Of a stretch of 37,274 nucleotides of DNA, positions 2,470-31,166 are shown piece by piece. The position numbers were made by a program, and so were the translations under genes. Position 1 is the first letter of the stretch. The number at the start of each line of letters is the position of its first letter. This DNA comes from a virus, in IMG/VR virus record IMGVR_UViG_3300021378_000071, positions 1-37,274 of that record; one strand, 5' to 3'. The notes under the pieces are model-generated. The model made no database searches. It was given only the letters and a program-made list of their open reading frames with translations, and had not been told where the DNA came from.

Positions 2470-2484
2470 AATTTACTCCTTTTT

Positions 2485-2613
2485 TTAAATCCAACATTTA
2501 TATTCAACGCAATCATCCTCTTCAGATCCGCAGTAGTTACAATAACCATCTGTGTACTGTGGATCATTACCAGGATCAAACTCGTTGTATTCTTCTATAA
2601 TTATTTCGTTCAT
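2485..2613 (-). CDS. tiny cysteine-rich (zinc-ribbon-like) protein
   Basis: This is a 42-residue frame. Its ATG overlaps the stop of the Sak4-like gene as ATGA, and a strong AGGAG lies 8 bases upstream. The protein is acidic and contains CNYCGSEEDDC plus one more cysteine near the C-terminus, enough for a single small zinc ribbon. The next gene begins 16 bases after its stop. The coupling and ribosome site make it a believable gene despite its size. Function is unknown. Confidence 0.6.
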   Translation of the reverse strand: MNEIIIEEYNEFDPGNDPQYTDGYCNYCGSEEDDCVEYKCWI

Positions 2614-3335: not shown

Positions 3336-3577
3336 TCTGCTACCTCTATTACTGTTTCGCTTTCAAGTGACTCTTTAAGCCTTTTTGAAAAACCAGCTCT
3401 TGCCATGTCAAGTATCTCTACTTCAAAATTAGCATTACCAATAAGCTCATTCTTTCGGTTTTCTATTACACCTAGCTTGTTATATAACAAACCCTGCTCA
3501 TCGTTAAGATCGTCAACTTTATATTGCTTACCGCCTTCTTCAAAGCTAAAGGTTTTTACTTCTTCATTATTGCTCAT
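3332..3577 (-). CDS. small charged protein, possibly DUF6447-like
   Basis: An 81-residue, acidic, mostly helical protein. Its beginning (FEEGGKQYKVDDLNDE) resembles small phage proteins that carry a short beta hairpin followed by a helix and are annotated DUF6447, but I am not certain of the match. ATGA overlaps link it to the nuclease gene upstream and the Sak4-like gene downstream. This position suggests an accessory to the recombination proteins. No catalytic motif is visible. Confidence 0.7.
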   Translation of the reverse strand: MSNNEEVKTFSFEEGGKQYKVDDLNDEQGLLYNKLGVIENRKNELIGNANFEVEILDMARAGFSKRLKESLESETVIEVAE

Positions 3578-4305
3578 TTTTTTTCCTTGTTATTAAGTTT
3601 ATATAAATCGCAGATGCTTCTTGCGTTACACCAGCGACAATGATCCCCAAATACATATTTAGGGTTTTCCTCTTCACACGCAGCAACTGCGGGCTGTAAG
3701 AAATCGTAGGCCCAATCCACTAAAAACTCAGCGGTTGTGTGCCATGTCTTGATGGGGCCACCGCCCCATGTTGCTCTTGGTTGTACGATAGTAATTTCTA
3801 CTTCAGTATCTTCACTACCGTATCTTGATAATGCGCCTAGGGCGTATATCATAGCTTGTTTGTTGTTATCTGGACTGACAGGAAACTTACCAGTTTTAAG
3901 GTCGATAACGCACATTCTCTTAGGGGTTACGATTAGCGCGTCAGCATAACCATATAAGTTATCTGAAATCTCTTCCAGTCTAACCTTTTGTTCAACAAGC
4001 AGTCTCCCGTCAATTTCTTTGGTACGATTTTGAACATAATCAACATAGACTTTTGCGCAATCTATCATGTCTTGATCTACCTCTATTTCAAAATCCTCAA
4101 CTAATTCTTTTTTACCTAACCAATAATCTTCTAAACTAACATCTACCAAAAAACCCTTTAGCAGTTGTTCTGTCATGGAGTGTATTAATGTTCCTACCGC
4201 CGCAGGTACGCCAACTTGGTAGTTAACTTTAGCAGCTAACTTAGGCATGCCTGGACAATTAGTCCATTTATCAGCTGAAGATGGGCTAAGTAAAGCGTGC
4301 TTCAT
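3574..4305 (-). CDS. PD-(D/E)XK nuclease, DUF2800 / Cas4-like with Fe-S cysteines
   Basis: The 243-residue protein begins with the LSPSSADKW..CPG pattern of DUF2800 / RecB-type phage nucleases. Visible catalytic elements are H42 (GTLIH), D122 (GYADAL), D135 and K137 (IDLKTGK), then Q150 with AMIYA. C17 together with C223, C226 and C232 (CRWCNARSIC) matches the spaced four-cysteine arrangement that holds a 4Fe-4S cluster in Cas4, AddB and Dna2 nucleases. A role as exonuclease feeding the Sak4/SSB annealing pair is inferred. Its 3' end overlaps the next gene as ATGA, and its start overlaps the HTH gene by 20 bases. Confidence 0.85.
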   Translation of the reverse strand: MKHALLSPSSADKWTNCPGMPKLAAKVNYQVGVPAAVGTLIHSMTEQLLKGFLVDVSLEDYWLGKKELVEDFEIEVDQDMIDCAKVYVDYVQNRTKEIDGRLLVEQKVRLEEISDNLYGYADALIVTPKRMCVIDLKTGKFPVSPDNNKQAMIYALGALSRYGSEDTEVEITIVQPRATWGGGPIKTWHTTAEFLVDWAYDFLQPAVAACEEENPKYVFGDHCRWCNARSICDLYKLNNKEKK

Positions 4306-4489
4306 TAGATACCTTTGCTTTCTCTTCTTCTTTTAGGATCTCCTCTATATCATAAACAACTTTACCAGCTAGTTTTAGATAGTTAGGTCCCATTTTTTTG
4401 TTTCTCCAGTTCTCTATGGTTCTTGGAGATCGCATCCAGCGTTCAGCTAATTGCTTGGTATCAATAAACTTTTTTTCACTATTACTCAT
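4286..4489 (-). CDS. helix-turn-helix regulator, MerR/AlpA/excisionase-like
   Basis: A 67-residue protein. DTKQLAERW..SPRTIENWR is a clear helix-turn-helix, followed by LAGKVVYDIEEI, the wing-plus-helix of the HTH_17 (excisionase/AlpA) group. It is the first gene of the leftward replication operon and its promoter region contains a near-palindrome (4533-4544), so autoregulation is plausible. With no integrase in the genome, an excisionase role is unlikely. A transcription regulator or an initiator accessory fits better. Confidence 0.8.
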   Translation of the reverse strand: MSNSEKKFIDTKQLAERWMRSPRTIENWRNKKMGPNYLKLAGKVVYDIEEILKEEEKAKVSNEARFT

Positions 4490-4519
4490 TTTTTATTCCT
4501 TTTTGTGTTCAGTTGCATT

Positions 4520-4548
4520 ATGATATACTCTCTTCTACGAAGAAACAA
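4520..4548 (-). promoter_or_regulatory. putative leftward promoter with embedded operator-like palindrome
   Basis: On the minus strand TTGTTT (4548-4543) and TATCAT (4525-4520) are separated by 17 bases, a reasonable sigma70-like match about 30 bases before the HTH gene. The spacer holds the near-palindrome TTCTACGAAGAA (plus strand 4533-4544, one mismatched pair). Repression by the HTH protein is an inference. The same divergent gap must also serve the rightward gene at 4575, for which TATACT at 4524-4529 is a possible -10. Confidence 0.4.
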
Positions 4549-4574
4549 GTATAAAATATAAAAAAGGAAATATT

Positions 4575-4892
4575 ATGAGTATAGACAACATAACACCAGA
4601 AGAATGGGACCAATCTATAGATAGACTTGCAACCAATAACCAGGTAGGTGGTGAACATTATAACAAATTAAGAATACAGCCTATTGATTATATTTATGCA
4701 AACAATTTATCTTATAACTTGGGAAGTTGCTTAAAGTATATAACTAGAAGCAAGGGTGACAGTCAAGATAAAATAAAAGATCTATTAAAAGCAAAACACT
4801 TTATAGATCTTGAGTTAGAAATGGTGCATGGAGTAGACAATGATGGTAACAACATTGGGGCTTACTCCGTGGAGGTAACAATAAATAAGTGA
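4575..4892 (+). CDS. DUF3310 protein (SaV-like)
   Basis: The 105-residue product contains VGGEHY near residue 24 followed by QPIDYIYANNL and GSCLKYITR, the hallmark of DUF3310. This family is common in tailed phages and sometimes labelled nucleotide kinase, although its activity is not firmly established. AAAAGGAAA lies before the ATG. It reads divergently from the replication operon and is followed 7 bases later by another small gene, forming a two-gene rightward unit. A role in early nucleotide metabolism is the usual guess. Confidence 0.8.
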   Translation: MSIDNITPEEWDQSIDRLATNNQVGGEHYNKLRIQPIDYIYANNLSYNLGSCLKYITRSKGDSQDKIKDLLKAKHFIDLELEMVHGVDNDGNNIGAYSVEVTINK

Positions 4893-17918: not shown

Positions 17919-18866
17919 TTAAGTAGTTAAGTCAGCAACGATGCCGTGTGCAGCTTCGTTACCTACTTCCAAACCATACTCAACTAAAAGTAATTTTGTC
18001 TGAGCATCGCCAACTGTAGCCATATCAACTGTTTTAAAGTCTCTTAAGTAAGAAACTTTAGCATATTCTGGATCTACTAAAAGCAATGATCTATCTCTAC
18101 TGAAGTTAGATGGTACGATTTTTAGCTCGCCAAAGTCTGAAGCATAAATAGAAACAGAAGCCTCTACTGTGTTTGCATCAATCATTTGTCTAGCTGAAGT
18201 TCTACCTGTGAAACCAGAAATAACTTGCTTGTTAACTGGACCACAAATTGCTAGTGAAGGCTCACCACCGTTTTGGAAGCAAGATTGTAAAACTGACTTT
18301 AATAAAGGTTCAGTTAAAGCTCTTCTGTCGCCAGTTGCTGCGTCAGTTGGAGCAACACCGTCACCACCACTTGCACCGCCAGTTCCTCTTGAAGCGTTAG
18401 ATGTAATCCAAGACTCAAAACCACCAGTTACTCTAGCTGTTGTAGAATCGCCAGTTGTCTTAGCACCTTTTTGACAAAGAGCTGTTTCCATATCTCTTTT
18501 CAAAGCTTTAGCCATAATAGCTAATTGGTGTGCCATTTCTGATCTTTTACCAGCTGGATCACTTGATTCCTGAGAACCAGATATTGTTGCGTCTCTTTTT
18601 GAAATCATTGCAACATTTATTTTCTTTTCTGTTGGAGTAGAAGCAGATGTGTTTTGATCTAATCTGAATCCCTCAATTTCACCAGTAGCATTTACTGTTG
18701 GTAGTGCTTCTGTTTGCCAATTAAAAACTACGTTCTTAATTGAGTTTTTTCCAATTGATGACATAAAAGGTGTTGTTGTTGGAGAAATGTTATATATAAC
18801 ATTGCTTAACTGTTCTCTGTTACCTTTTGCATCAAATGTACTGAATACATTGTTAATTTCGGCCAT
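17919..18866 (-). CDS. major capsid protein, SU10/DUF5309 type
   Basis: A 315-residue HK97-fold capsid candidate. NNVFSTFDAKGNREQLSNVIYNISPTTTPFMSSIG is the opening typical of the DUF5309 / SU10 capsid group, followed by NVVFNWQTEALP and RDATISGSQE. The C-terminal part has KIVPSNFSRDRSLLLVDPEYAKVSYLRDF, the P-domain strands and spine region. Immediately upstream lies a coiled-coil scaffold gene, and a strong terminator follows, both common for capsid genes. The DNA near the start carries TATAGGAAAATATC as a ribosome site. Confidence 0.92.
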   Translation of the reverse strand: MAEINNVFSTFDAKGNREQLSNVIYNISPTTTPFMSSIGKNSIKNVVFNWQTEALPTVNATGEIEGFRLDQNTSASTPTEKKINVAMISKRDATISGSQESSDPAGKRSEMAHQLAIMAKALKRDMETALCQKGAKTTGDSTTARVTGGFESWITSNASRGTGGASGGDGVAPTDAATGDRRALTEPLLKSVLQSCFQNGGEPSLAICGPVNKQVISGFTGRTSARQMIDANTVEASVSIYASDFGELKIVPSNFSRDRSLLLVDPEYAKVSYLRDFKTVDMATVGDAQTKLLLVEYGLEVGNEAAHGIVADLTT

Positions 18867-18889
18867 GATATTTTCCTATATTTAAAAGT

Positions 18890-19891
18890 TTATAATAATT
18901 GTTCAAAAACTTTAGCTGCATCTCGTACTTTGCCAGTCTGCGCTAATCGTTGTTTTGCTTTCTTAGCAGAGCTTACCGTTTTTCGTTTATTTGTAGTACC
19001 AGGTCTTGCAACTCTAGCTGGTGCTTTTTGTGTTGGTTTCTTCTTAACAGTTTCAGCGATTTTATCGCTTAACCATGCTTTTCTTAAACCAAGTAAAGCT
19101 CTCCAGTCATATACAGAGTTAATCTCTTCTTGGGTATATCCCAAGACATTGGTTGCGTAATTTGCAATTTCAGCTTTTTCTTTATTGGCAACCTCTTGGT
19201 TCTGCCATTCTGGAATAACCTCAAGCAACTTAGTCTGTCCTTCTTCAACTTGTTGTTGAATTAGTTTCTGCTGTTCAGCAAATGACTCCTGTTGAAGTCT
19301 TTGTTGTTCAGCCTGGACAGCTTCTAGCTTTTGCTTTTGTTCATCCCAAAGCTGTTTTTCTCTTACATAACCAACTGGATCATCTTCATATAATCGTTGC
19401 CAGTCTGGCTCTTCACCTAAAACACCCTTTAATTGGGCTTCCATTTTCGGTAATAACTGCGAATAGATCGCATCTCTTTGCTCTAACTCTGCTTGCTGCT
19501 GCTCAATAGTTTTACGCTGTTGAGAGAGTTCTTGAGTTTTACGCGTATAATCTTGCTGACGAGAATATCCATTGATGAGTTCCTCTTGCGTGACTTCTAC
19601 CTCTTGGCCATCTACCTTTACAGTAAATGTTTGAAGTTGCGGAGCTTCCTCTTCAACGTCTGTTTGTTCTTCTTCAACTTCTTCGTCATCTTCCAACTCA
19701 TCTATAATTTCTTGATCTATTTCATCTTCAACAAACTCAGAATCATCTTCAATGACCTCTTCTTCTGCTACATCTTGTTCTTCGACTGCATCTTCAACAT
19801 TATCCTCTTCAGGTGTTAGTATGCTTTCAAAAACAGACGCAGCTAAATCTGTGTCGCTTTGTAAAGCAGTCGGTTTTCCGTTATTGCTCAT
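18890..19891 (-). CDS. capsid scaffolding protein
   Basis: A 333-residue protein. Residues about 25-85 are extremely acidic (EEDNVEDAVEEQDVAEEEV and similar), followed by a small strand region (FTVKVDGQEVEVTQEELINGYSRQ). A long glutamine-rich coiled coil comes next, and then a basic C-terminus (KKKPTQKAPARVARPG). An acidic start, a central coiled coil and a basic capsid-binding tail directly before the capsid gene is the standard scaffold layout. The start codon and ribosome site lie in a hairpin (19890-19914) that may set its dose. Confidence 0.85.
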   Translation of the reverse strand: MSNNGKPTALQSDTDLAASVFESILTPEEDNVEDAVEEQDVAEEEVIEDDSEFVEDEIDQEIIDELEDDEEVEEEQTDVEEEAPQLQTFTVKVDGQEVEVTQEELINGYSRQQDYTRKTQELSQQRKTIEQQQAELEQRDAIYSQLLPKMEAQLKGVLGEEPDWQRLYEDDPVGYVREKQLWDEQKQKLEAVQAEQQRLQQESFAEQQKLIQQQVEEGQTKLLEVIPEWQNQEVANKEKAEIANYATNVLGYTQEEINSVYDWRALLGLRKAWLSDKIAETVKKKPTQKAPARVARPGTTNKRKTVSSAKKAKQRLAQTGKVRDAAKVFEQLL

Positions 19892-20623: not shown

Positions 20624-20857
20624 TTAACCTGTAATTAATTTATCCATTTTTTCGTCTAGCTTATCTAAACGATCTATAACTCTATCTATACTAATTGTTA
20701 GTTCAACTTTAGTTACATAATCTTTTGCAACTTCTTCGCGAGTCTTATTGAGTAGTATATCAACTCTTTTTAATTCTGTCGCGTTTGTTCTGATACCATG
20801 AATGATTGGAGCAATTACTAAAGTGATAATAATATTCCAATACGTTAATGGATCCAT
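20624..20857 (-). CDS. membrane-anchored coiled-coil protein, lysis accessory candidate
   Basis: A 77-residue protein from the ATG at 20857, which shares its A with the TGA of the endolysin (TGATG) and has GGAG six bases upstream. An upstream TTG would add four residues. Residues 5-21 (YWNIIITLVIAPIIHGI) form one membrane helix. The rest is a charged coiled coil ending DKLDEKMDKLITG. The position just after the endolysin and the N-terminal anchor suit a second holin or an inner-membrane spanin-like part. No outer-membrane spanin partner is obvious. Confidence 0.65.
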   Translation of the reverse strand: MDPLTYWNIIITLVIAPIIHGIRTNATELKRVDILLNKTREEVAKDYVTKVELTISIDRVIDRLDKLDEKMDKLITG

Positions 20858-21228
20858 CAATAACTCCAAATATGTGGTCTAGGTCTACCCTGTGAATCTT
20901 TAGATATATCAAGATGTATAAATCTTGCACCACCTTTTTGGTTTACACCAATACCAGTAAATCCAAAGTCTCTAGCTTTAGATATTATTTCTAATGCTTG
21001 TTTGCCTCTAACACCTATGTCTGCTGCTAAACCTAAAGCATGTGTACCAGGCTTTGATTTTTTAATTTCTACAGGATGGTCTGCGCATCTATAACCAGAT
21101 GTTATTTTAAATGGAAATCCTAGCTCTGTTCTTAGTTCTTGTAGTTTATCAACAAGCTCATGCTCTATTTTGTTTTCACCGCAATGCTTACAAGCAAATT
21201 CTTCTAGTACAAAGTTCTTCCAACTCAT
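20857..21228 (-). CDS. endolysin, M15 zinc peptidase
   Basis: A 123-residue peptidase of the M15A (D-Ala-D-Ala carboxypeptidase-like) group that cleaves peptide bonds in peptidoglycan cross-links. SGYRC (44-48), H63 and D70 (GTHALGLAAD) and FIHLD (H105, D107) give the H-x6-D...H zinc site and the catalytic acidic residue. No signal peptide is present, so release depends on a holin, and a 3TM holin gene lies directly upstream overlapping as ATGA. Length is normal for the single-domain phage enzymes. The gene ends at a TGATG junction with the membrane coiled-coil gene. Confidence 0.92.
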   Translation of the reverse strand: MSWKNFVLEEFACKHCGENKIEHELVDKLQELRTELGFPFKITSGYRCADHPVEIKKSKPGTHALGLAADIGVRGKQALEIISKARDFGFTGIGVNQKGGARFIHLDISKDSQGRPRPHIWSY

Positions 21229-21605
21229 TTTGTAACTCCTTTAGTTTTTTCAAATGTTCTAAGTCCTCCAAGACCTAGCATACCCATTAATACAGTCATT
21301 AGCGAACCCATGTCAAAAGTTGGTAAGTCAAATGATAGTCCTGCTGCTGATAGTCCAAATATAATAATAGGCTGTAATAAAAAATGATATAACATAGCAA
21401 TACCGCAAGTCCACCCCACAAAGGGCCGCCAGCCCGCAACAAATAAGGATTTATGTCCAGCTTCAATCTTGTTGATTTCAATCTGCGCCATATTCGCTTT
21501 ATGTAATTCTGTTTTAAGTTCATGGTTTAGTTTTGCTTGTAAGTCTTTATCTGGCACTAGCTTGCTAACAATGTCACCTACTGGTCCTATTAGTTTATCA
21601 ATCAT
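21225..21605 (-). CDS. holin, 3-TM / GTA holin-like
   Basis: A 126-residue protein. An amphipathic N-terminal half (DKDLQAKLNHELKTEL and EINKIEAGH) leads into GWRPFVGWTCGIAMLYHFLLQP, the signature of the 3TM holin family. Another membrane segment (PIIIFGLSAAGL) and a third (MTVLMGMLGLGGL) precede the FEKTKG end. The protein would open the inner membrane to the M15 endolysin encoded immediately after (ATGA overlap). This is the best-supported holin in the genome, although several other small membrane proteins are present. Confidence 0.88.
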   Translation of the reverse strand: MIDKLIGPVGDIVSKLVPDKDLQAKLNHELKTELHKANMAQIEINKIEAGHKSLFVAGWRPFVGWTCGIAMLYHFLLQPIIIFGLSAAGLSFDLPTFDMGSLMTVLMGMLGLGGLRTFEKTKGVTK

Positions 21606-21936
21606 CTTTTTTATGTAGTTTTAAAAAATACTCAGCATCTACCAATGCCAATGGTTTTGTTCTGTTTCTTTTAATTATAACCAAAGGTTCGTAATCTTTA
21701 CAGTTTTCTTGTGATTGTTCATAAGCTTTCCACACATTTACAGCTTCTTGATTTTTACACTCTACTGAATATGGAAATTGTTTGCGAGATTGCACGCCCA
21801 TGATGATATCTTCACCATTAGAACCCATTGGCCTTGATTCTAAATCTTCTGGATCAAATCCTAGTAGTTCAACAAGTTTATCTACCACCCATTGTTGCAA
21901 AGCTCTCCCTTTGGCTTTTGCAGATGATGGTTTCAC
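21598..21936 (-). CDS. Hjc-like PD-(D/E)XK nuclease
   Basis: A 112-residue protein with a GTG start (21936) that overlaps the stop of the tiny basic gene as GTGA. AKGRALQQWVVDKL (G10, R11), SNGEDIIMG (D43) and YSVECKNQE (E59, K61) give the GR...D...ExK order of Holliday-junction-resolvase-type phage nucleases. It would cut branched DNA before or during packaging. Its place beside the lysis genes is unusual but seen in other marine phages. It overlaps the holin start by 8 bases. Confidence 0.8.
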   Translation of the reverse strand: MKPSSAKAKGRALQQWVVDKLVELLGFDPEDLESRPMGSNGEDIIMGVQSRKQFPYSVECKNQEAVNVWKAYEQSQENCKDYEPLVIIKRNRTKPLALVDAEYFLKLHKKDD

Positions 21937-22021: not shown

Positions 22022-23758
22022 CTATATTGTATAAATAACTAAAGGTTTTTCTTTGCCTTTAACTTTTATTGGTTTTAACAATTTTAACTCAATTTGCAAT
22101 TTATTTGCAGTAGATTCGCCAATCAATATATCTACACCCACCTCTTTGGTTGCTGACTCTAATCTTGCAGCTGTATTCACGCAATCACCAATAGCAGAAT
22201 AATCAAACCTAGTATCGCTACCCATATTACCAATAACAGCAGTTCCAGTATTTATACCTATGCCTATTTCAATACCAAGATCAGCTATTTTAATTTTGTC
22301 TTGTATTTCTTTTGCGCAAAGAACAGCTGCCTGTTCGTGATCTGGTATATCTATCGGAGCATTAAAGATTGCCATCATTGCATCACCAATATATTTATCT
22401 ACCATGCCATCATAAAACTTAACTGCATCTGCTTGAATGGTTAAAGCCTTGTTCATAATCTTGGTAACTTCTTCTGGTTCTAACTTTTCTGACAAAGATG
22501 TAAATCCTCTAACATCTGTAAATAAAAATGTGCAGTATTTTTTTTCGCCACCAAGTTTTAATAAGCTTGGATTGTCTTGCAATTGTTTAACTTGTCTTGG
22601 ATCTAAGTAATGTTCAAATTGTTTTTTTATCTGTTGACGTAATTTATATTGTTTTTTGTAGCTTAAATACAAAGCAACTGTAGAAACTAGTATCTGAGAG
22701 ATAAAAGTCCATGAAAAATCTAACAAAATACCTTTCTGAACGCTAAAAGCTCCTAAGAAGCCCGTGGTGAACAGGAAAATTATAGCGAGACTTATGCCCT
22801 TAACTATACTGAGATAATTAATTACAAGCCACGTCAACGACACGAAAATTAGCAAAATCAAAATTTCGGCTGATAAATGCCAGTTTGGAATCCTTGGCGA
22901 GTTTTCTATCAAGATTGACTCAGATAATGCTGTTTGAATTTTGTGTGGTTCTAATAATCCAGTCGGAGTTGCAATTTGTGGCATGATGCCTGGAGCAGTT
23001 ACGCCGACAAATACAAACTTACCAGCAACATCCATTTCTTGTAAATTGGTTTGTGGTGTGTCTACCCAGCTAATCCACTTACGACCTAAACTGTCGGTAG
23101 CAACTGGTGGCAATCCTTTGACGCGTATTTGTTCTATACCAAGATCATTTGTTTTTATAATATAAGTATCAGCACCAACCAATGCTTTCAATACCTCTGT
23201 GCCAAATGCAGGCACATAACCATCTGGTGTTCTTAACAATAACGGTATTCTTCTTACTAAGTTATCTACATCAGTAGGCGCAGTTGCAATCCCTTCCTGT
23301 GCATAAGTTGTTAATAACTTTATGTTTTGTATAACACCATTTGTAGTCATCCCACCTACATCATCACCAAGTATGACAGTTCCTGTAGTTGGTGGATAAT
23401 TACCATTAGGATTCTCAAACATCGCTAAAACAGAAGTGCCATACTTTAATGATTCTGCAAAGTAAGCATCACCACCCATGCGGTCTGGTTGTGGAAAACC
23501 TATAACGTAACCAACACCTATTGCGCCTTTAGCCATTATCTCTGTGTGTATTTCTCCTAGTCTTTTTCTTGGTAACGGCCAACCGCCTTCGTTAGCTATA
23601 TCTTCTTCTGTAATATTTAAAATAGTAAAGTAACCAGATGGTTGTTGCTCTGGTACTAGATAGTCAAATACTTTTAACTTTAATATTTCTGTCGGTGTTG
23701 ACTGATATAACAAAGGCAACACTAGTATTATAAGCATGATGAATAATAGACGTTTCAT
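22022..23758 (-). CDS. CHASE2-domain class III adenylate/guanylate cyclase
   Basis: A 578-residue membrane sensor enzyme that should turn ATP (or GTP) into the cyclic nucleotide. One N-terminal membrane helix (3-19) is followed by a periplasmic CHASE2 domain (about 25-290). Three more membrane helices (about 297-366) and a short linker (FEHYLDPRQVKQL) lead to the cyclase domain (about 405-578). All key residues are visible: metal-binding D415 (FTDVRGFT) and D459 (YIGDAMM), purine-specifying K455 and D525 (AIGDC), and transition-state N528 and R532 (VNTAAR). K with D at the specifying pair indicates adenylate. The ATG overlaps the FecR stop (TAATG). FecR-CHASE2 cyclase pairs are known in bacteria; in a phage this is unusual. 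The gene is intact, with no frameshift. Confidence 0.93.
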   Translation of the reverse strand: MKRLLFIMLIILVLPLLYQSTPTEILKLKVFDYLVPEQQPSGYFTILNITEEDIANEGGWPLPRKRLGEIHTEIMAKGAIGVGYVIGFPQPDRMGGDAYFAESLKYGTSVLAMFENPNGNYPPTTGTVILGDDVGGMTTNGVIQNIKLLTTYAQEGIATAPTDVDNLVRRIPLLLRTPDGYVPAFGTEVLKALVGADTYIIKTNDLGIEQIRVKGLPPVATDSLGRKWISWVDTPQTNLQEMDVAGKFVFVGVTAPGIMPQIATPTGLLEPHKIQTALSESILIENSPRIPNWHLSAEILILLIFVSLTWLVINYLSIVKGISLAIIFLFTTGFLGAFSVQKGILLDFSWTFISQILVSTVALYLSYKKQYKLRQQIKKQFEHYLDPRQVKQLQDNPSLLKLGGEKKYCTFLFTDVRGFTSLSEKLEPEEVTKIMNKALTIQADAVKFYDGMVDKYIGDAMMAIFNAPIDIPDHEQAAVLCAKEIQDKIKIADLGIEIGIGINTGTAVIGNMGSDTRFDYSAIGDCVNTAARLESATKEVGVDILIGESTANKLQIELKLLKPIKVKGKEKPLVIYTI

Positions 23759-24951
23759 TAATTGCTTTGGGTTATTTTAATAATGCTACCAGTACCACCA
23801 TTTATTTTTACAACTTTAGATGCACCATCTTGTATAAAAATAACTGTGTAACTAGCAGATGAATCTATATCTACTCTTGCTGTATCGTTTACGCTACGCA
23901 TAAGCGTTAGAACTTCGCCAGTTATGTATGATGTTATTTGCGTGTTCAGGTCTTGACCTAGTTTTGTACCAACAATGTTAATTGATGTAGCATCCTGTGC
24001 TAACTGATCTTCTTCTTGTATTTCTTGTAGTGCGTCTATTACATCTAACAAATCTTCTAAGAAGTTCACATCAAGATAATTTATATCTAGTTCTGTAAAC
24101 TCTAGCTCTCGTTCTGAATCTAAAAAGTCTTCTTCTAAGTAATCTATATCTAAATCATCAAAGTCTAATATGTTTGCTTTTTTGGTTTGTATGGTTTCTT
24201 CTGTAACCTTTTCTTGCTGTGGCGGGTTTACGATAAGCATGTTATCTATCAGCTCTAGTGTTAAATCTAGTATGACTGGTTTGCTTGGTGATTTTTCATA
24301 TACATCTACAGTTGTAGCTTCGTAAGGTTTATTTAGTGTAACTGTACCCATAGCTGTAGTTACTAATATTTCACCGCTAGATAAACCATTGATATCAGGC
24401 AATAGTATTAATAAACTGCGACCAGTCTCATCTACCGTTACCGTAAAGTCAGTACCTCTTATAGCTATGTTAGCTGTAGGCGTTTTTAAATCTATATTAT
24501 TTTTGTCTATCTTATTTAAACTACCTGTAATAAATCTTGCTGTGCCAAGACCAAAGGTGATAGCCATTTTGGATTTGCTAGGGTTAGGATCAAAGATATA
24601 TTCGTCTATAGTTAGTTGCGAGTGTTCAGTTAATTTAACTTTAGAATCATCTAAGAATGTAATAGCCATACGACCATTAGATGTAATAGCCTCATCGTTT
24701 TGCTGTATGTCAAAAGATTCTGTTGCCTGGTATGGCTTATCTCTTACAACTTGTGCTGAACCAGTTAGCTCAGATATATTTCCTACATCAACAGCTGGTT
24801 GTTGTTCCGCCGTCACTTTGAACGACGCAAACAGTACCGTTACTGCCAGTAGAGTTAATCTGTAACCAATCAGCAGCAAGAGTTGATGACTGTATGATGT
24901 TGAATGTTCTACTGTTTCCTGTTTGGTCAAGATAGAAGTATCCTCCCGCAT
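23758..24951 (-). CDS. secreted FecR-domain protein
   Basis: A 397-residue protein from the ATG at 24951, which has AGGA 7 bases upstream (a GTG at 24957 is also open). A hydrophobic export segment (LLLLIGYRLTLLAVTVLFASF) ends near TAEQQPA. Residues about 55-165 form a FecR domain (AITFLDDSKVKL, ITFGLGTARF, LKTPTANIAIRGTDFTV). From about 230 a strongly acidic region repeats LDIxYLxxxFL units (DLDIDYLEEDFL, ELDINYLDVNFL). It probably sits in the periplasm and informs the CHASE2 domain of the cyclase next door. Its first 164 bases overlap the curlin-like gene in another frame. Confidence 0.82.
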   Translation of the reverse strand: MREDTSILTKQETVEHSTSYSHQLLLLIGYRLTLLAVTVLFASFKVTAEQQPAVDVGNISELTGSAQVVRDKPYQATESFDIQQNDEAITSNGRMAITFLDDSKVKLTEHSQLTIDEYIFDPNPSKSKMAITFGLGTARFITGSLNKIDKNNIDLKTPTANIAIRGTDFTVTVDETGRSLLILLPDINGLSSGEILVTTAMGTVTLNKPYEATTVDVYEKSPSKPVILDLTLELIDNMLIVNPPQQEKVTEETIQTKKANILDFDDLDIDYLEEDFLDSERELEFTELDINYLDVNFLEDLLDVIDALQEIQEEDQLAQDATSINIVGTKLGQDLNTQITSYITGEVLTLMRSVNDTARVDIDSSASYTVIFIQDGASKVVKINGGTGSIIKITQSN

Positions 24952-25498
24952 ATCCACTTCCTGTAAAGTTTACTGTGTTGCTATCCCCGTCTACATCAAC
25001 ATAGTTAGTAGCACCATCATAGTTAATATCAAAATCAAAAGTATTACTGTCACCATTGATTATCCAATCTAAGTCTAGGTTTTCACTTAACGCACTTGTG
25101 CCAGTATCTAGTGTAAATGTGTTAGAGCTACCTGTTACATCAACATTGTAGTCTGATCCACTAATACCATAAGTATCTGTTGGATCTGCTTGTATAGTAA
25201 ATGTATTACTGTCACCGTCAAACTCAAAGAATCCTGTTACATTATCACCATAGATATCACCAAGAAATTTATTAGTATTACCTATTTGGTTGATATCTAG
25301 TGTTAAATTAATACCGTCAAGATCTAATGCTGTTAGTGTACCAGCTATAGAATTTAGACCGCCTATAATGTTAGATGAACCTAGTTGCTCTAGGTCTATG
25401 TTTGCTGTTGCACCAGCTTGTTCTACAAAGATTTCGTTGTCAGCCGCGAATAGCGGTAACGCAATCATCGTCGCAATCAATTGTTTTAAATTCTTCAT
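24788..25498 (-). CDS. secreted curlin-repeat-like (amyloid) protein
   Basis: A 236-residue protein with a Sec signal peptide (MKNLKQLIATMIALPLFAA). The mature part is glycine/asparagine/aspartate-rich with QxGxxN units (VEQAGATAN, LEQLGSSN, NQIGNTN) and later GDSNTFT, GSSNTFTL, GDSNTFDF and GDSNTVNF units. These resemble curlin repeats of CsgA/CsgB that stack as cross-beta amyloid. It ends with two cysteines (TVCVVQ...TTTSC), which E. coli curlins lack. It directly follows CsgG and overlaps it by 59 bases, so it is the probable export substrate. A secreted beta-solenoid of another kind is the alternative. Confidence 0.72.
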   Translation of the reverse strand: MKNLKQLIATMIALPLFAADNEIFVEQAGATANIDLEQLGSSNIIGGLNSIAGTLTALDLDGINLTLDINQIGNTNKFLGDIYGDNVTGFFEFDGDSNTFTIQADPTDTYGISGSDYNVDVTGSSNTFTLDTGTSALSENLDLDWIINGDSNTFDFDINYDGATNYVDVDGDSNTVNFTGSGYAGGYFYLDQTGNSRTFNIIQSSTLAADWLQINSTGSNGTVCVVQSDGGTTTSC

Positions 25499-26303
25499 AA
25501 CTCCAATATCCTCTATTTGTTCCTTCTTTTATAGTTTGTAAAACAGCAGTTTCTATCGCTGTTTGTAGTGCTATATTGATTGACTCGTTTCTGACTAAAC
25601 CGTTCTCTACTTCTACTAGTTCGGTTGAATCACTAATAAAACGAAAGATATCTTGATCTATAGATGCACTTAATATCGTTTTGGTTACTAGCACTTCTAG
25701 TAATACTTTACCCGTACTCACAGATACGGTACGCAATGAGATGGTAACTGTATCTTGTTTGTACTGCCTAGACATTCCTATTCCAAGGTATCTAGCTCCA
25801 GCACCACCACTCTTTACGTTACTTTCGTATGATATCACGCCACCTTGCATTATCAAACCCGCAAACATAAGTGGTTGTAATTTGGTGTCTTTTTTAAACT
25901 CCTGCCTGGTGCTTCTAATGATTTGTCTTTCTTTAGTTACATGGTCTAGGCCTACGCGTTCTACCACTTCAAAGAAACCATTATGATTTATACCAGCATG
26001 TTTTAATGCTCTGATTAAATAAGCATCTGGTGCTTGAGTTACCGCAGATGAAAAGGTTGCGTATGTGCTGTTGCTTCTGCGTTGACCAGTTTGGTCTGTG
26101 AATGATCCTGTATAGATTGCTACAACTGGTTTAGTTTTGTTATTTGTTTTTATGTTAGCGAGTTCTGGAACTAACAAAGATCCTATCTCTGGCTTTTCTA
26201 TTTTTTGTAGGGGTGGTAAATTGTTTTCTAACGGATCTATTATTATCGCGCAACTAGAAAGTAAAGTTGCCAATAGGCAAAGATATAGTCGTTGTATCAC
26301 CAT
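25440..26303 (-). CDS. csgG: CsgG curli secretion-channel lipoprotein
   Basis: A 287-residue CsgG family protein, close to the usual length. A lipoprotein signal ends in LLSSC with the lipidated C18. The body retains strong CsgG landmarks: VVAIYTGSFTDQTGQ, FSSAVTQAPDAYLIRAL, FFEVVERVGLDHVTKERQII, GGVISYESNVKSGGAGARYLGIG, TVSVSTGKVLLEV and TAIETAVLQTI. Nonameric CsgG forms an ungated outer-membrane pore that exports unfolded curlin subunits. It overlaps csgF upstream by 50 bases and the curlin-like gene downstream by 59, so the three should be made together. CsgE and CsgD are not seen. A role as a lysis or leakage pore is possible. Confidence 0.93.
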   Translation of the reverse strand: MVIQRLYLCLLATLLSSCAIIIDPLENNLPPLQKIEKPEIGSLLVPELANIKTNNKTKPVVAIYTGSFTDQTGQRRSNSTYATFSSAVTQAPDAYLIRALKHAGINHNGFFEVVERVGLDHVTKERQIIRSTRQEFKKDTKLQPLMFAGLIMQGGVISYESNVKSGGAGARYLGIGMSRQYKQDTVTISLRTVSVSTGKVLLEVLVTKTILSASIDQDIFRFISDSTELVEVENGLVRNESINIALQTAIETAVLQTIKEGTNRGYWSYEEFKTIDCDDDCVTAIRG

Positions 26304-26691
26304 TAGAATCCGTTATTGTTAAAGTTATTATACCGTCAACAACATTATACTCTATAGTGTTACCTTCTAACTCTAAAATACCACTAGTGCTTGCAGTTTC
26401 ACCAAATAAGTTTTCTACTAGTTGTCTTGATAACTGTGCATAGATTCTACTTTCTAAGTTTCTGATAAACCTAGCAAGTGTAGTATTTTCTTTGTCTCTT
26501 TCTATCTCATCTTGTAATGCTTTTATCTCTGCTTTGAGCGTCATCTTCCTGGTGTGCATTTGATTTTCTATAGTTAGATAGTGTGCAGATGTACCAACAC
26601 CAGAGAACGATGGTGACTTAAACTTATGCACCATTTCATCTGCTGATACAGATAAACATAATACTAATAAACTAATCTTTCCTTTTGTCAT
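26254..26691 (-). CDS. csgF: CsgF curli assembly protein
   Basis: A 145-residue protein with a short signal peptide (KISLLVLCLSVSA), followed by MVHKFKSPSFSG. This matches the FxNPxFGG start by which CsgF plugs into the CsgG pore. The middle is an extended charged helix (KAEIKALQDEIERDKENTTLARF), longer than in E. coli. The end, NTIEYNVVDGIITLTITDSNGDTTTISLP, fits the CsgF beta region. It precedes csgG, with which it overlaps by 50 bases, as expected for a pair acting in one complex. It likely anchors nucleation of the secreted fibre at the cell surface. Confidence 0.85.
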   Translation of the reverse strand: MTKGKISLLVLCLSVSADEMVHKFKSPSFSGVGTSAHYLTIENQMHTRKMTLKAEIKALQDEIERDKENTTLARFIRNLESRIYAQLSRQLVENLFGETASTSGILELEGNTIEYNVVDGIITLTITDSNGDTTTISLPIGNFTF

Positions 26692-27022
26692 CTCTTCTTG
26701 CCTTTGCTATTTTGTTGGTGTCTATCAATTGTGGTACACCAAGCATGGTTTTTATCATAGTGTCTTGTCTGATAATTTCATTATCTAGCGATCTAACTCT
26801 ATCTATCAATGCTACAAGAATACCATGTTGCGTGTCTAGTTTTGTGCCTAGTCTACCTTCCATAGCCGTTAATGATGTATTAACTTTTTCATCTACGGTA
26901 TCTAATTTTGTTTCCATGCCATCTATAATTCTGTTTATAAGTTTCCAAACAAACATGCCAAGACCTATGGCCGCAGCTATAGGGAAACCTAATTCGGTTA
27001 TTAGAGTAACAACATCGTTCAT
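26672..27022 (-). CDS. N-anchored coiled-coil membrane protein, holin-like
   Basis: A 116-residue protein. Residues 8-29 (ITELGFPIAAAIGLGMFVWKLI) form a single transmembrane helix. The rest is a long coiled coil (ETKLDTVDEKVNTSLTAME, GRLGTKLDTQHG, DRVRSLDNEII) with a basic end. Proteins of this pattern are common in marine phages and are sometimes called holin or holin-accessory. It stands directly before csgF and overlaps it by 20 bases, so it may be the first gene of the cargo. No catalytic residues are visible. Confidence 0.65.
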   Translation of the reverse strand: MNDVVTLITELGFPIAAAIGLGMFVWKLINRIIDGMETKLDTVDEKVNTSLTAMEGRLGTKLDTQHGILVALIDRVRSLDNEIIRQDTMIKTMLGVPQLIDTNKIAKARRDDKRKD

Positions 27023-27254: not shown

Positions 27255-27527
27255 TTACCATTTTACTTTGTTAGCCCAGTAAGCTGCGGACAACTTACCC
27301 TTTGCGATATTCTTAGCGTGTCTCGCTTTAAATGATTTTCTTCTAGCTTTACCTTTAGCAGTCATAGGATTTTTACCAGCACCACTAACACCTTGTTGAC
27401 CAAAGCGAATTAATTTAATTCTATCTCCAGACTTTGCTAGAACAGCGTGTGATTTGGTTTTGTGACCTGGAGTCCTTTTAGGTTTGTTGTAACCCGCAAA
27501 TCTTTCGCCTCTATATGTTAATGCCAT
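27255..27527 (-). CDS. basic conserved phage protein (DUF6321-like)
   Basis: A 90-residue protein, very basic, with RFAGYNKPKRTPGHKTKSHAV, IRFGQQGVSGAGKNPMTAKGKARRKSFKARHAKNIAKG and a final AYWANKVKW. This pattern is widespread among marine cyanophages and pelagic phages and is, as I recall, filed as DUF6321. Its abundance of lysine and arginine suggests binding to DNA or RNA. Location between portal-linked genes and the cargo points to virion assembly. Function is not established. Confidence 0.78.
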   Translation of the reverse strand: MALTYRGERFAGYNKPKRTPGHKTKSHAVLAKSGDRIKLIRFGQQGVSGAGKNPMTAKGKARRKSFKARHAKNIAKGKLSAAYWANKVKW

Positions 27528-27530
27528 AAC

Positions 27531-27716
27531 TTAATCATATCTTGAAACTACGTTTTTTACTATATTGCTAAATGTCTCGCTTTTTGACACAGCATCTGCG
27601 TCTAACTCAATTGCGTCATAATCAAAGTCCTGTTTCTTTAAAGATTCCTGCGGTATCTTCATAGACTTTTTTTGGTTGCCCAATTGGAGTTGTTGTATCA
27701 ATTTTTCCATATCCAT
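27531..27716 (-). CDS. small acidic protein overlapping the zeta-like gene
   Basis: A 61-residue protein whose ATG at 27716 has AAGGA 7 bases upstream; it overlaps the 3' end of the kinase gene by 95 bases in another frame. The N-terminus is glutamine/lysine-rich and the C-terminus acidic (FDYDAIELDADAVSKSE). A second ATG at 27662 would shorten the overlap. Its position just after a zeta-like kinase raises the idea of a small antidote, but there is no sequence similarity to support that. Confidence 0.5.
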   Translation of the reverse strand: MDMEKLIQQLQLGNQKKSMKIPQESLKKQDFDYDAIELDADAVSKSETFSNIVKNVVSRYD

Positions 27717-28764
27717 CTGCTATTCCTTCCTTTTTTAAAGTTTCGTAAGTTATGTTTGGTTTACCTTTGTACGCCTCTGCTGTTTTAGGATCAATTAAGC
27801 GGCCTTTTTTTACAAACCTTTTATTCATTCTAACCAAAGCCAAATCTGGATCTATTTCTGTTAAAACTAAATTTACTTTATATCCTTTATTTTTTAAATT
27901 TATAATTTCAGACTTCATTGCCTCTGGAGAACCTCCTACCCTTGGTATCACAAGGTTGTCTCCTCTTGAAATTGCAACATCAAGAACATTGTTAGATAGT
28001 ATTTTAGATTCGTGATGTGCTGCGTTTGCGCCAATACCGCCCTGGTATTCTGGCAAAACTTTTTTAGCCTCGTCTGAATCTATTATAGTGGCTTTATTTT
28101 TAATTGCTAGAGGGTTAGATATCGCGCTTTTGCCAGACGCTGGAGGACCTATTACAATGTTAGCCGTTTTCTGAGAGCTTGTATTTTTTTGCATTATATT
28201 TTTTGGTATTTTTTTACCCGTTTCTAAATATGCAAGCCTTCTCCCTCCTTTATAAAGCTCATCAATTGCATTTTCATAACCTGTAATTTTTTTATTTCCA
28301 AATTCAAAAGATCTTTTTGCAGTAAATTCTGGAGTGCCGTAATTTTGCATTAATCTGGTTTCTGGTATTTTATTCATATCATCTACAGCTTTTAGTATGG
28401 CTGGATTTTCTTGTGCAAGTTTGTACTTTTGTAAATCTGTGAGCTTTGTATCTTCTAAAATATTTTTTAAATCCTGCAACGCGTCTCTTTTCAACAAACC
28501 AGAGCCAACGGTTGCAGCTGCTTTAGCTGGAGCGCCTATAAAACCAAGTGCATCCATAGGAGTATCTGGGACAACAAAATCTTTTATTCCTCTACCTAGT
28601 TTTTGTAAATTAGCTATAACTGGATCTGGAGAGTATTGTTGTTTTTTGATTTTTTCAAGATCCAAGGGTGAAAGAGGAGCAGCAATACCAGTTCGGTTAG
28701 TTGGTTGTGGTTTTGAATAGGGTGTGGTTACACCTGTTTGCAAAATTTGGTTCAACTTATCCAT
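27622..28764 (-). CDS. zeta-toxin-like P-loop kinase with N-terminal extension
   Basis: A 380-residue protein. Residues about 1-195 are a helical, unrecognised extension (with a SYGTPEF-like turn). From 201 comes a zeta-toxin type kinase: ANIVIGPPASGKS with Walker A at 206-213, IIDSDEAKKVLPEY (D229, D231), HHESK (250-254), NLVIPRVGG and RMNKRF (R312, R316). Zeta toxins phosphorylate UDP-N-acetylglucosamine and stop wall synthesis; some members have other substrates. In phages such domains ride on packaged proteins. It sits three genes after portal. No epsilon antitoxin is seen. Start at a TAATG junction. Confidence 0.78.
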   Translation of the reverse strand: MDKLNQILQTGVTTPYSKPQPTNRTGIAAPLSPLDLEKIKKQQYSPDPVIANLQKLGRGIKDFVVPDTPMDALGFIGAPAKAAATVGSGLLKRDALQDLKNILEDTKLTDLQKYKLAQENPAILKAVDDMNKIPETRLMQNYGTPEFTAKRSFEFGNKKITGYENAIDELYKGGRRLAYLETGKKIPKNIMQKNTSSQKTANIVIGPPASGKSAISNPLAIKNKATIIDSDEAKKVLPEYQGGIGANAAHHESKILSNNVLDVAISRGDNLVIPRVGGSPEAMKSEIINLKNKGYKVNLVLTEIDPDLALVRMNKRFVKKGRLIDPKTAEAYKGKPNITYETLKKEGIADGYGKIDTTTPIGQPKKVYEDTAGIFKETGL

Positions 28765-28862: not shown

Positions 28863-29038
28863 TAATGTACCGTCCTTTCTTCGTAATAAATTATTTCAGA
28901 ATCTTCTGTCACTTCTCCGCCAGACATTACAGACATAATTTGCATTGCGTGATTTTTATTTTTTGCTTTAATCTCTTTACCAACATAAACCATATCGTCA
29001 ACAATTACTTCAATATCAAATATTTTGTTGTGGGACAT
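28862..29038 (-). CDS. small acidic protein after portal
   Basis: A 58-residue protein from the ATG at 29038, starting MSHNKIFDIEVIVDDM. An upstream ATG at 29074 would add 12 residues and deepen the overlap with the portal gene from 23 to 59 bases. The sequence looks like a small beta-alpha fold (EVIVDDMVYVGKEIKAKNK then HAMQIMSVMSGG) ending EDSEIIYYEERTVH. The stop overlaps the next ATG. Similar genes follow portals in other marine phages, but no function is known. Confidence 0.65.
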   Translation of the reverse strand: MSHNKIFDIEVIVDDMVYVGKEIKAKNKNHAMQIMSVMSGGEVTEDSEIIYYEERTVH

Positions 29039-31166
29039 TGTTTGTAAATAATCCTTGAGCTTGAGCTTTTGCATCTTGTCTCATTCCTTCTCTGTCTCTT
29101 TCCATAATTGCGTTTATTTCTGCGACATTAACTTGTGCGCCGTACTTAGCTTGCATTTCCACAACCTTAACTTTGAGTTGTGCTTCTTCTATGTCTCTTT
29201 GTCTGTCATCGTCCATGATGATTTTCATTCTGTCAGTTTCAGCGTCTATCATTGCCTTCTGTGCGCTAACTTGTGCCTTCATTGCTTCAGCCTGTGCAAG
29301 CATTTCAGCTGGATCTGGCTTCTGTTCTTCGGGTTGTTGCGGTGGCATCGGAGGAACTTCTGTATTTATGAAAGATGATGAGTCTTTAAACCCAGCCATT
29401 TCAATCATTTTAGTCAAAGTATTAGCATATTGCTGTAATGATACCAATGGATTCTGTGGTCCTAGCAATTGCATGATTTGTTCTTGTTTTTGCGCTACAT
29501 TTTGTAGAACTGCAAACTTTTCTTGGTCTGAAGACTTAGATATCGCTACATTTACGATAATATCCTTGTCATTATCCCAGTATCTTGGATCTACTGGTAC
29601 GAATTTGTTGTTTAATCTATACACATCTTGCGCGTTTTGGTGCTTGATTACCAAGTTATTAACGGTTTTAAAAATATCTTTGAGGCCACCTTCAGCAAAA
29701 TGTCTGCATATCAGCTCTACTCTTCCTTGTGCGCCACTCATAGTAGCCGATACAGCTGATGAGGTGCTAGATTGTAGAGCGTCTGCATTTAAGCCAGCTG
29801 ATGCTTTAGATACGCCAGTTCTATTTTCTTTGGCTTCGTCTAAATATCCTAATACTGGGAAAGCTTCTTTACCCACAAACGGCACAGCAAATGGTTGTAC
29901 CATTCCTGGCGCACGCATCCTAATAGGTTGCCCTATGTCGGTGTTTAATACGTCATCAATATTTACTTGCCCTTCAACAATACCCATTCTTGGGAAGATT
30001 GAATGACCTAGCGAGTCTAAAGTGTCACGCATAATCTGTGACTTAGCAGCTTGAATTGGTTTGATGTAATCCGCAGGACATGATCCTATAGCTGTGTGTG
30101 GTTCTGGATCTGGACAGAACATACATATTGGTAGTTCATCCCAAGGCTCTACATTTACAACATGGATGCCGTTGCCGATAGTACACACTCTAACTCTTTC
30201 GTCTATACCGTCACCATCAAAATCATAGAACAAGTAATGCTCTACATATAAAACATCTTTCCCGCCAGAGTCATTTCTGTTTGGGTACACCATATTGTCA
30301 AATGGGTTTCTTGCTTCTATCTCTTCAAAAGCTTCTGGATCTACCGCGCTTCCGCCGTAGCCAGCATGTTCTTCTACTTCTTCTTGGTCGTAACCCATTG
30401 CCACTAAATCAGAAACAGACTTGACCATTCTGTGTGCAACGTAAGATGCGGATTCAAGATCGCGTGCGTGCCTTGATAGCAATACTTCTTCTGGTGGTAT
30501 CGCTTCTATGCACACTTGGTTTTTTTGTTTTAATCTTCTGATAGTAAGATCATAACTTGTAGGAATTTCTTGGGTGATTTCTTCACCGCTTATTGGATCC
30601 ATTGTAGTAATGGTTTCTGTGATAGAAGACTCTTCTACAATCTCTACGTCTTTGTCTATGATGAGTGCTTGGTAGGATTGTGGATCTAAACCTGTGTATT
30701 CGTGCGTGGTAGCTTTAACAGCATCATCCCAAAATACTTTTACAAAACCAGTCTTTCTAACAAGTGCATCTTTGAAGGCATCGTATAAAACTTGGAACCC
30801 ATTATTTTTTTGTTGGATAATATAATTAATATAGTCAGTTTGCTGCTCGGCAAGTTCTATATCTTCTGGACCTTTAGGCACAAACTCCACCACTTTCTTA
30901 GTACCAAAGAAGGTACGCATGATAGACGGCAACATAAACAATATGCTTTCTCTAACATCGGTAGATATAAACTCTGACTGTAACGAGCTAGTTCCTTCTG
31001 GCTCATTGCCTAAATAATATTCTGTTGATTCAGCTCTGTCCGCACCGATTTGGTGTATAAAATCACTAGCATCATCCATCTCGGATTTAATAACGCCGAC
31101 AAGATTTTCCATGTTAGTTTCTTCTGAAACTTTAACTGACATTTCTTCTTTATATTGTTTTGCCAT
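29016..31166 (-). CDS. portal protein, P22-like
   Basis: A 716-residue portal. Landmarks are EFISTDVRESILFMLPSIMRTFF near residue 66, YDAFKDALVRKTGFVKVFWDD, ICMFCPDPEPHTAIGSCPADYIKPIQ, and a stem-like RTGVSKASAGLNADALQSSTSSAV. A long glutamine/lysine-rich coiled C-terminus (QAEAMKAQVSAQKA...) resembles the P22 barrel. Twelve copies form the DNA gate at the capsid vertex. The gene starts 3 bases after the terminase stop. Size and the coiled tail fit the P22/SU10-type portal rather than the shorter HK97 or lambda portals. Confidence 0.92.
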   Translation of the reverse strand: MAKQYKEEMSVKVSEETNMENLVGVIKSEMDDASDFIHQIGADRAESTEYYLGNEPEGTSSLQSEFISTDVRESILFMLPSIMRTFFGTKKVVEFVPKGPEDIELAEQQTDYINYIIQQKNNGFQVLYDAFKDALVRKTGFVKVFWDDAVKATTHEYTGLDPQSYQALIIDKDVEIVEESSITETITTMDPISGEEITQEIPTSYDLTIRRLKQKNQVCIEAIPPEEVLLSRHARDLESASYVAHRMVKSVSDLVAMGYDQEEVEEHAGYGGSAVDPEAFEEIEARNPFDNMVYPNRNDSGGKDVLYVEHYLFYDFDGDGIDERVRVCTIGNGIHVVNVEPWDELPICMFCPDPEPHTAIGSCPADYIKPIQAAKSQIMRDTLDSLGHSIFPRMGIVEGQVNIDDVLNTDIGQPIRMRAPGMVQPFAVPFVGKEAFPVLGYLDEAKENRTGVSKASAGLNADALQSSTSSAVSATMSGAQGRVELICRHFAEGGLKDIFKTVNNLVIKHQNAQDVYRLNNKFVPVDPRYWDNDKDIIVNVAISKSSDQEKFAVLQNVAQKQEQIMQLLGPQNPLVSLQQYANTLTKMIEMAGFKDSSSFINTEVPPMPPQQPEEQKPDPAEMLAQAEAMKAQVSAQKAMIDAETDRMKIIMDDDRQRDIEEAQLKVKVVEMQAKYGAQVNVAEINAIMERDREGMRQDAKAQAQGLFTNNVPQQNI

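Follow-up and report, generated by a model that had tools for sequence, protein, structure and literature searches.

Curli-type gene sets that also encode a FecR-domain protein and a nucleotide cyclase were described in pelagiphages in 2022 (PMC9599517), and the isolates HTVC008M (KC465899) and Melnitz (MZ577097) carry the set according to their GenBank entries. Published suggestions for such cassettes include sibling capture, superinfection exclusion, and lysis timing (PMC9599517, PMC9004378, PMC7029224), and uptake has been proposed alongside sibling capture and lysis timing (PMC7029224, PMC9004378); the role of the set is debated, with capture, exclusion, uptake, and lysis as candidates. 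Here we analyse IMG/VR virus record IMGVR_UViG_3300021378_000071, a marine virus contig of 37,274 bases (hereafter the window, meaning this whole stretch) that carries a cassette of this kind, and we report two features that constrain the choice among these roles, i.e., lysis genes next to the cassette and exchange of the genes from CsgF to FecR as a block. The original prediction, made from the letters of the window, had suggested that the set as a whole was new; given PMC9599517 and the HTVC008M and Melnitz entries, the gene set is not new and its novelty is refuted.

The module described for HTVC023P-type podophages and pelagimyophages (PMC9599517) has the same gene order as the window (CsgF, CsgG, a CsgA/B-like protein, FecR, and adenylate cyclase), and there as well a short gene, sometimes two, lies ahead of CsgF; the window differs in having no second curlin gene and in that its gene at the place of the published "histidine kinase", here called p116, has no kinase family match. 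HTVC008M and Melnitz likewise encode CsgF, CsgG, a curlin-like protein, FecR, and cyclase, with a p116-type pair ahead; unlike the window, they have myophage genomes of 141-147 kb and encode one more curlin-repeat protein, placed after FecR and ahead of the cyclase, which in HTVC008M carries a PA14 domain.

Results and Discussion

Gene content and recurrence of the cassette

In the window, the cassette consists of five open reading frames (ORFs) on one strand with end-to-start overlaps (22022-26691, minus strand, as are all window genes given below), preceded one gene upstream by a sixth member, p116 (26672..27022; phrog_18771, E = 2.3e-16). Four of the five products match their families above the curated Pfam cut-off, namely CsgF (26254..26691; PF10614, E = 6.8e-19), the predicted outer-membrane pore lipoprotein CsgG (25440..26303; PF03783, E = 1.8e-45), a FecR-domain protein that is probably exported (23758..24957; PF04773, E = 7.4e-10), and a CHASE2 class III nucleotide cyclase (22022..23758; PF05226, E = 2.7e-27; PF00211, E = 2.6e-20); the fifth (24788..25498) encodes a putative curlin-like secreted substrate of 236 amino acids, here called crl. 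The cassette lies between the genes for the portal (29016-31166) and for the scaffold and major head protein (17919-19891). Five overlapping same-strand genes, these four sets of domains, and this position had all been predicted, and all were found. Its families and order mark the cassette as a type VIII secretion (curli) module of the pelagiphage kind, carried by a phage.

To place it among relatives, we searched for loci with CsgG, portal, or p116 and obtained 212 after dereplication, the window among them; up to 80 best per scan were taken, and the sample therefore leans to close relatives. A cassette gene was held by 157 loci. A locus was considered judgeable if it had all six genes or, where some were missing, if the sequence extended for 1.5 kb or more ahead of it and 2.5 kb or more behind it, truncated loci being excluded; p116, CsgF, CsgG, crl, FecR, and cyclase were all present in 125 of the 127 judgeable loci. 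The two others are HTVC008M, in which tblastn missed the curlin, and L151, which has p116 alone. Co-occurrence of the five genes in other phages, on which the original prediction had been staked, is thus common in this sample, and that prediction stands partly supported: module, likely substrate, and recurrence are borne out, while novelty was wrong. Two side observations concern single loci. In L265 (3269-6208), FecR and cyclase lie in a single 979-residue frame followed by a second cassette copy, which reflects either a genuine fusion or an error of assembly; and L004 (OR851715.1, 1499 bases), titled Salmonella phage S.Kent 1-2-1, has a gene for a CsgG relative (39%), this being an unverified low-coverage contig that is perhaps bacterial.

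Lysis genes next to the cassette

Downstream neighbours were counted in the 82 loci whose sequence continues for 2.5 kb or more past the cyclase, genes being grouped by BLAST linkage. Of these loci, 66 have an endolysin (lysozyme or M15) at most 2.5 kb downstream of the cyclase, and 78 have a lysis-type gene that starts no more than 423 nucleotides (nt) after it, in the form of HOL0 plus lysozyme (29 loci), 3TM holin plus M15 (25), a spanin-like pair plus lysozyme (12), HOL0 alone (11), or the spanin-like pair alone (1). Only the lysozyme group (PF00959, two members) and, through the window proteins, the M15 and 3TM holin groups are anchored in Pfam; the Pfam holin match of HOL0 (0.078) is below cut-off, the spanin-like pair matched no spanin family by Pfam, the first neighbour is often such an unverified gene, and 12 of the 82 loci carry an unverified holin- or spanin-like gene only, with no endolysin. 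Two loci have lysis genes upstream of the cassette (HOL0 plus lysozyme just upstream in L271; lysozyme 1.1 kb upstream in L202). In the window, a RusA-like nuclease gene (21598..21936; phrog_244, E = 4.7e-19) directly follows the cassette, and the adjoining lysis genes encode a 3TM holin (21225..21605; PF11351, E = 3.4e-17; phrog_3427 holin, E = 1.2e-28) and an M15 peptidase endolysin (20857..21228; PF08291, E = 8.3e-14; phrog_894 endolysin, E = 1.2e-34). No earlier report of this adjacency was found in the literature searched, and the words holin, endolysin, lysozyme, and spanin are absent from the main text of PMC9599517; the place of the cassette beside lysis genes appears not to have been described previously.

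This neighbourhood could mean that the cassette is itself a lysis device, in which CsgG and CsgF, with or without crl, weaken the outer membrane, p116 acts as a holin-type partner, and the FecR/CHASE2 cyclase times the event. Such a role has been proposed for Melnitz (PMC9004378), and it fits the fact that lysis genes adjoin the cassette in several arrangements, including that of L291, a contig from a metagenome-assembled genome (MAG) in which HOL0-type and lysozyme-like proteins (2125-4798; named by sequence resemblance) come directly after FecR. It also fits p116, which is weakly holin-like and which, in L151 (13308-14427), stands intact and directly ahead of a 3TM holin and M15 endolysin with no other cassette gene. 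We consider a lysis device possible but doubtful, as, among 62 SU10-portal loci spanning the site, 29 have the cassette and 33 lack it (presence counts in sampled loci, not frequencies), and 26 of these 33 keep an M15 endolysin, 22 of them with a 3TM holin also (the other seven being cut by contig ends or having no M15 match); these phages thus manage lysis without the cassette. Moreover, at least 13 cassettes adjoin a spanin-like pair, and allelic variation of the exported genes would seem needless for an internal machine. Replacement of a spanin by the cassette was considered separately and is unsupported: a crude lipobox pattern run from portal to scaffold gave no other candidate in 20 loci without and 21 loci with the cassette, and this pattern missed CsgG in 8 of the latter 21, CsgG having been partly filtered out.

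Cassettes occur in SU10-portal and HTVC023P-type backbones and in one with a phrog_511 internal virion protein. That the cassette is a passenger, i.e., late-region cargo at an insertion-tolerant site with no particular link to lysis, would agree with the variability of the SU10-portal site, which, from portal to lysis genes, measures 0.7-3.2 kb in the 33 loci without a cassette and where a zeta-like gene comes and goes. This explanation is improbable, however, in view of six genes kept together, in order, and under purifying selection across several backbones, and of lysis genes adjoining the cassette in backbones that otherwise share little.

Exchange of the CsgF-to-FecR block

The locus L087 is nearly identical to the window in its flanks (nt identity of 99.0% for portal, 98.2% for RusA, and 98.4% for holin) and in p116 (98.3%) and cyclase (98.9%), but not in CsgF (71.7%), CsgG (56.2%), crl (65.7%), and FecR (69.9%); identity falls near 26660 and recovers near 23720, and the region of the zeta-like gene differs too. 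L162 and L164 have almost the same block as L087 (91-97% to it) in place of that of the window, with cyclases 88.5 and 87.7% alike. As read from these alignments, CsgF, CsgG, crl, and FecR are exchanged as a block between phages with 98-99% identical flanks, and such swapping of the exported parts appears not to have been described previously.

Across 106 loci (5,356 pairs), Spearman correlations of identity were 0.76-0.79 among CsgF, CsgG, crl, and FecR; p116 correlated with these four genes at 0.26-0.30 and with the cyclase at 0.40, and the cyclase correlated with CsgF, CsgG, and crl at 0.53-0.59 and with FecR at 0.79, FecR itself tracking the block at 0.78-0.79. FecR thus seems to track both sides in a bridge-like manner, and the cyclase is, by these values, not cleanly outside the block. 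Cyclase identity exceeded block identity by 20 points or more in 25 pairs (12 loci), and in 80 pairs (34 loci) it was the block whose identity was higher, by 12 points or more. On this evidence, CsgF, CsgG, crl, and FecR behave like a single co-adapted allele and p116 varies separately, while the cyclase goes with FecR, from which it is nevertheless separable, and can even be missing. Median ratios of nonsynonymous to synonymous substitution rates (dN/dS) were 0.04-0.14 over the six genes (59-60 pairs each; 0.078 for crl), values that are rough given the high dS (0.5-1.1). For identity and dN/dS, 17 ORFs were start-trimmed, ORFs with later inner stops and the 979-residue FecR-cyclase ORF of L265 were dropped, and the FecR of L087 was added by hand.

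The curlin-like protein and the other products

PF07012, the curlin repeat, scored above cut-off in three of eight other phage cassette proteins, i.e., two of Melnitz (8.6e-6 for the protein at the crl position and 1.9e-4 for a second protein) and one of HTVC008M (a further cassette protein, 5.2e-8); the crl-position protein of HTVC008M (1.1) and the crl of L087 (0.36) are below cut-off. A profile of phage crl matches two bacterial csgG-adjacent proteins (4.2e-5 and 1.5e-4) that have clear curlin repeats (PF07012, 6.9e-17 and 3.6e-22). Six G-x-x-N pairs (G40/N43, G73/N76, G95/N98, G123/N126, G149/N152, and G171/N174) are invariant in 43 phage homologues, and the AlphaFold2 model of crl has a repeated beta-strand fold (predicted local distance difference test, pLDDT, of 86) that resembles the beta-helix of SufB/SufD (best Z 17.7, 2.8 A, 192 residues). 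CsgA and other curlins are reported to be beta-solenoids (PMC10192328). Taken together, family matches and model suggest that crl is likely a divergent curlin-like protein and export substrate.

Six phage sequences were compared for each of the following proteins. CsgF has invariant V21, H22, F24, P27, F29, and G31, and CsgG an invariant lipobox Cys18. In the cyclase, D415, K455, D459, and R532 are invariant; we take D415 and D459 to be the catalytic metal-binding Asp pair and K455 and R532 the catalytic Lys and Arg of class III cyclases. The Asn preceding R532 is present in the window and is Ser in Melnitz. On this assignment, the window cyclase has the catalytic residues of a class III adenylate cyclase. 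No cAMP (cyclic AMP) receptor was found among 30 window proteins scanned with Pfam. The true start of FecR is probably downstream of the listed GTG, and the L087 homologue begins at a hydrophobic, signal-like segment; a structure model of FecR was poor (mean pLDDT 51.5) and was discarded. By the listed ORF ends, the crl/FecR reading overlap (24788-24957 in the window) is about 91 or 163 nt in 105 loci.

Proposed role

The reading that we prefer, and that we hold to be evenly balanced between right and wrong, is that a late curli system covers the infected cell, near lysis, with a beta-solenoid fibre and in most cases includes a FecR/CHASE2-cyclase sensor. It builds on protein families, gene order, conservation, purifying selection, lysis neighbours, and block exchange, all of which are shown by the data. 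CsgG and CsgF would build an outer-membrane pore through which the crl beta-solenoid would be exported, to polymerise on the infected cell; periplasmic FecR would signal the state of pore or fibre to the inner-membrane cyclase by way of its CHASE2 domain, and the cyclase would then produce cAMP. Late action is suggested by the lysis genes as neighbours, and an exposed role, rather than that of an internal lysis machine, by the exported parts varying as a block. The benefit would be late and extracellular, with neighbours, debris, or virions held round the lysing cell, or shielding from other phages.

A more specific version holds that marine podophages couple amyloid export to lysis through a swappable, serotype-like exported half (pore, chaperone, fibre, and FecR), with the inner-membrane p116 varying apart and the cyclase loosely linked; around the lysing cell, the fibre would mark or shape the environment in a manner specific to the strain, and in most carriers a periplasmic FecR-CHASE2 cAMP signal would report export before the cell opens. 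Our estimate for this version was lowered slightly because of the cyclase-free L291, and we now regard it as rather unlikely.

Several observations weigh against a late-acting fibre system with a sensor. Synthesis of the cassette late, together with the lysis genes, is deduced from gene position. Of the predicted curlin repeat, the matches in relatives, the invariant GxxN, and the beta-helix model stand, but the window crl itself has no PF07012 match at E<=1 in Pfam; Foldseek gave no match to its model at E<=0.001, and the beta-solenoid fold is also common in non-fibre proteins (PMC10192328). L291, which is outside the 127 judgeable loci, has p116, CsgF, CsgG, crl, and FecR but no cyclase, so that the sensor is not essential. 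In the two myophages, HTVC008M and Melnitz, unlike in the window, no lysis gene adjoins the cassette, none being annotated next to it or found up to 2.5 kb downstream, and the authors of PMC9004378 report that Melnitz caused no clumping by cytometry or transmission electron microscopy. The 78 lysis-adjacent loci are related rather than independent and therefore represent a handful of separate contexts, and the block edge is not sharp overall, since the cyclase tracks FecR as FecR tracks the block. Finally, CsgE, which has been reported to be absent from pelagiphages, had no Pfam match among the 30 window proteins scanned, a set that did not include every ORF.

The last point is what an open uptake pore would call for, in which CsgG without CsgE admits large nutrients or siderophores and the curlin-like gene is secondary, as proposed in PMC7029224 and PMC9599517. 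Retention of crl in 125 of 127 judgeable loci, under purifying selection, speaks against uptake, as does a lysis-gene neighbourhood that would be odd for a feeding pore, and we judge it very improbable.

The sixth cassette gene, p116

The p116 protein has 116 amino acids, with one N-terminal hydrophobic segment (by hydropathy in six examples) and, by eye, a charged coiled-coil-like tail. At E<=0.1 it matches only six of 50,697 phage records, all six of them curli carriers. Its similarity to holin families is weak (phrog_4898, 0.0011 in the window and 0.00011 in Melnitz; phrog_1296, 0.00082 in L151), a YvrJ match of p116-type proteins is below the Pfam cut-off, and none of eight p116-type proteins (88-116 residues) matched a kinase family in Pfam at E<=1. 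Tandem p116-type pairs occur in 15 loci, L265 not being counted as it is a repeated cassette; one carrier of such a pair, L218, has an HTVC023P-type terminase (61.8% to 023Pt_psg01 and 57.9% to HTVC023P). The published "histidine kinase, sometimes two" (PMC9599517) is therefore probably p116, an assignment made from position, number, and the L218 terminase; if p116 was misnamed, a wrong lead for the signalling part is removed.

Bacterial relatives and probable origin of the cassette

In the class of G001, a MAG titled Rhodobacteraceae, 12 of 289 genomes had a CsgG match; three strong csgG loci and three contigs of G001 were read, and eight weaker genomes (E 5e-18 to 2e-12) were left out. The three bacterial loci have CsgF and then CsgG, as in the window, and two of the three a curlin-repeat protein; within 8-9 kb on either side, no profile match to p116, FecR, or cyclase was found, the FecR profile including the L265 fusion ORF and hence also matching cyclases. 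By comparison, FecR lies within 1.5 kb of 22 of 101 CHASE2 matches in 96 genomes of the class, 15 times upstream on the same strand (101 CHASE2 and 121 FecR places; rows of G001 were dropped, as the phage cassette is present on its contigs C129 and C173). Since the three bacterial curli loci gave no FecR or cyclase match and FecR-CHASE2 pairs occur in a class where CsgG is rare, the phage cassette has the look of two bacterial modules combined, a curli core and a FecR-CHASE2 sensor pair. The Burkholderia BiofilmReg operon likewise has a predicted extracytoplasmic FecR protein just upstream of an inner-membrane CHASE2 sensor, and a response-regulator mutant is without biofilm; its output is a CHASE2 histidine kinase with a response regulator, whereas in the window it is a cyclase and the pair belongs to a phage cassette for curli export (PMC5192318).

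Six matches were found in bacterial genome contigs, five being phage-type cassettes with p116 in MAG bins (L291 without cyclase, L293 without a tblastn match to crl, and L290 cut inside the cyclase) and one, L294, being CsgG alone. The MAGs of L290-L293 and L295 are titled Maricaulis (twice), Rhodobacteraceae, Flavobacteriaceae, and Pelagibacter. G001 has four CsgG-bearing contigs, with p116 in all three that were read.

Other features of the window

The window (38.0% guanine plus cytosine; 33.8% in the HTVC008M stretch) has the gene order terminase, SU10-type portal, zeta-like kinase, u90, cassette, RusA, 3TM holin, M15 endolysin, scaffold, major head protein, and tail genes. Its portal, the backbone marker (29016..31166; PF23899, E = 2e-193), is 43% identical to its best match among the matches listed from the 50,697 phage records and 33% to that of Pelagibacter phage HTVC106P. 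Only two of 25 window proteins, both tail-type, match HTVC023P bases 1-50000 at E<=1e-3, with no match there for terminase, portal, or head protein, and the window terminase gave no alignment with that of the HTVC023P-type carrier L218; by these comparisons, the window is another podovirus lineage than HTVC023P and a new carrier of a known gene set. The small protein u90 (27255..27527; phrog_7595, E = 8.1e-39), encoded upstream of the insertion site, is present in cassette-bearing and cassette-free relatives alike. The zeta-toxin-like kinase gene (27622-28764), between portal and u90, is diverged in L012, while L087 and L089 lack it or have something else in its place.

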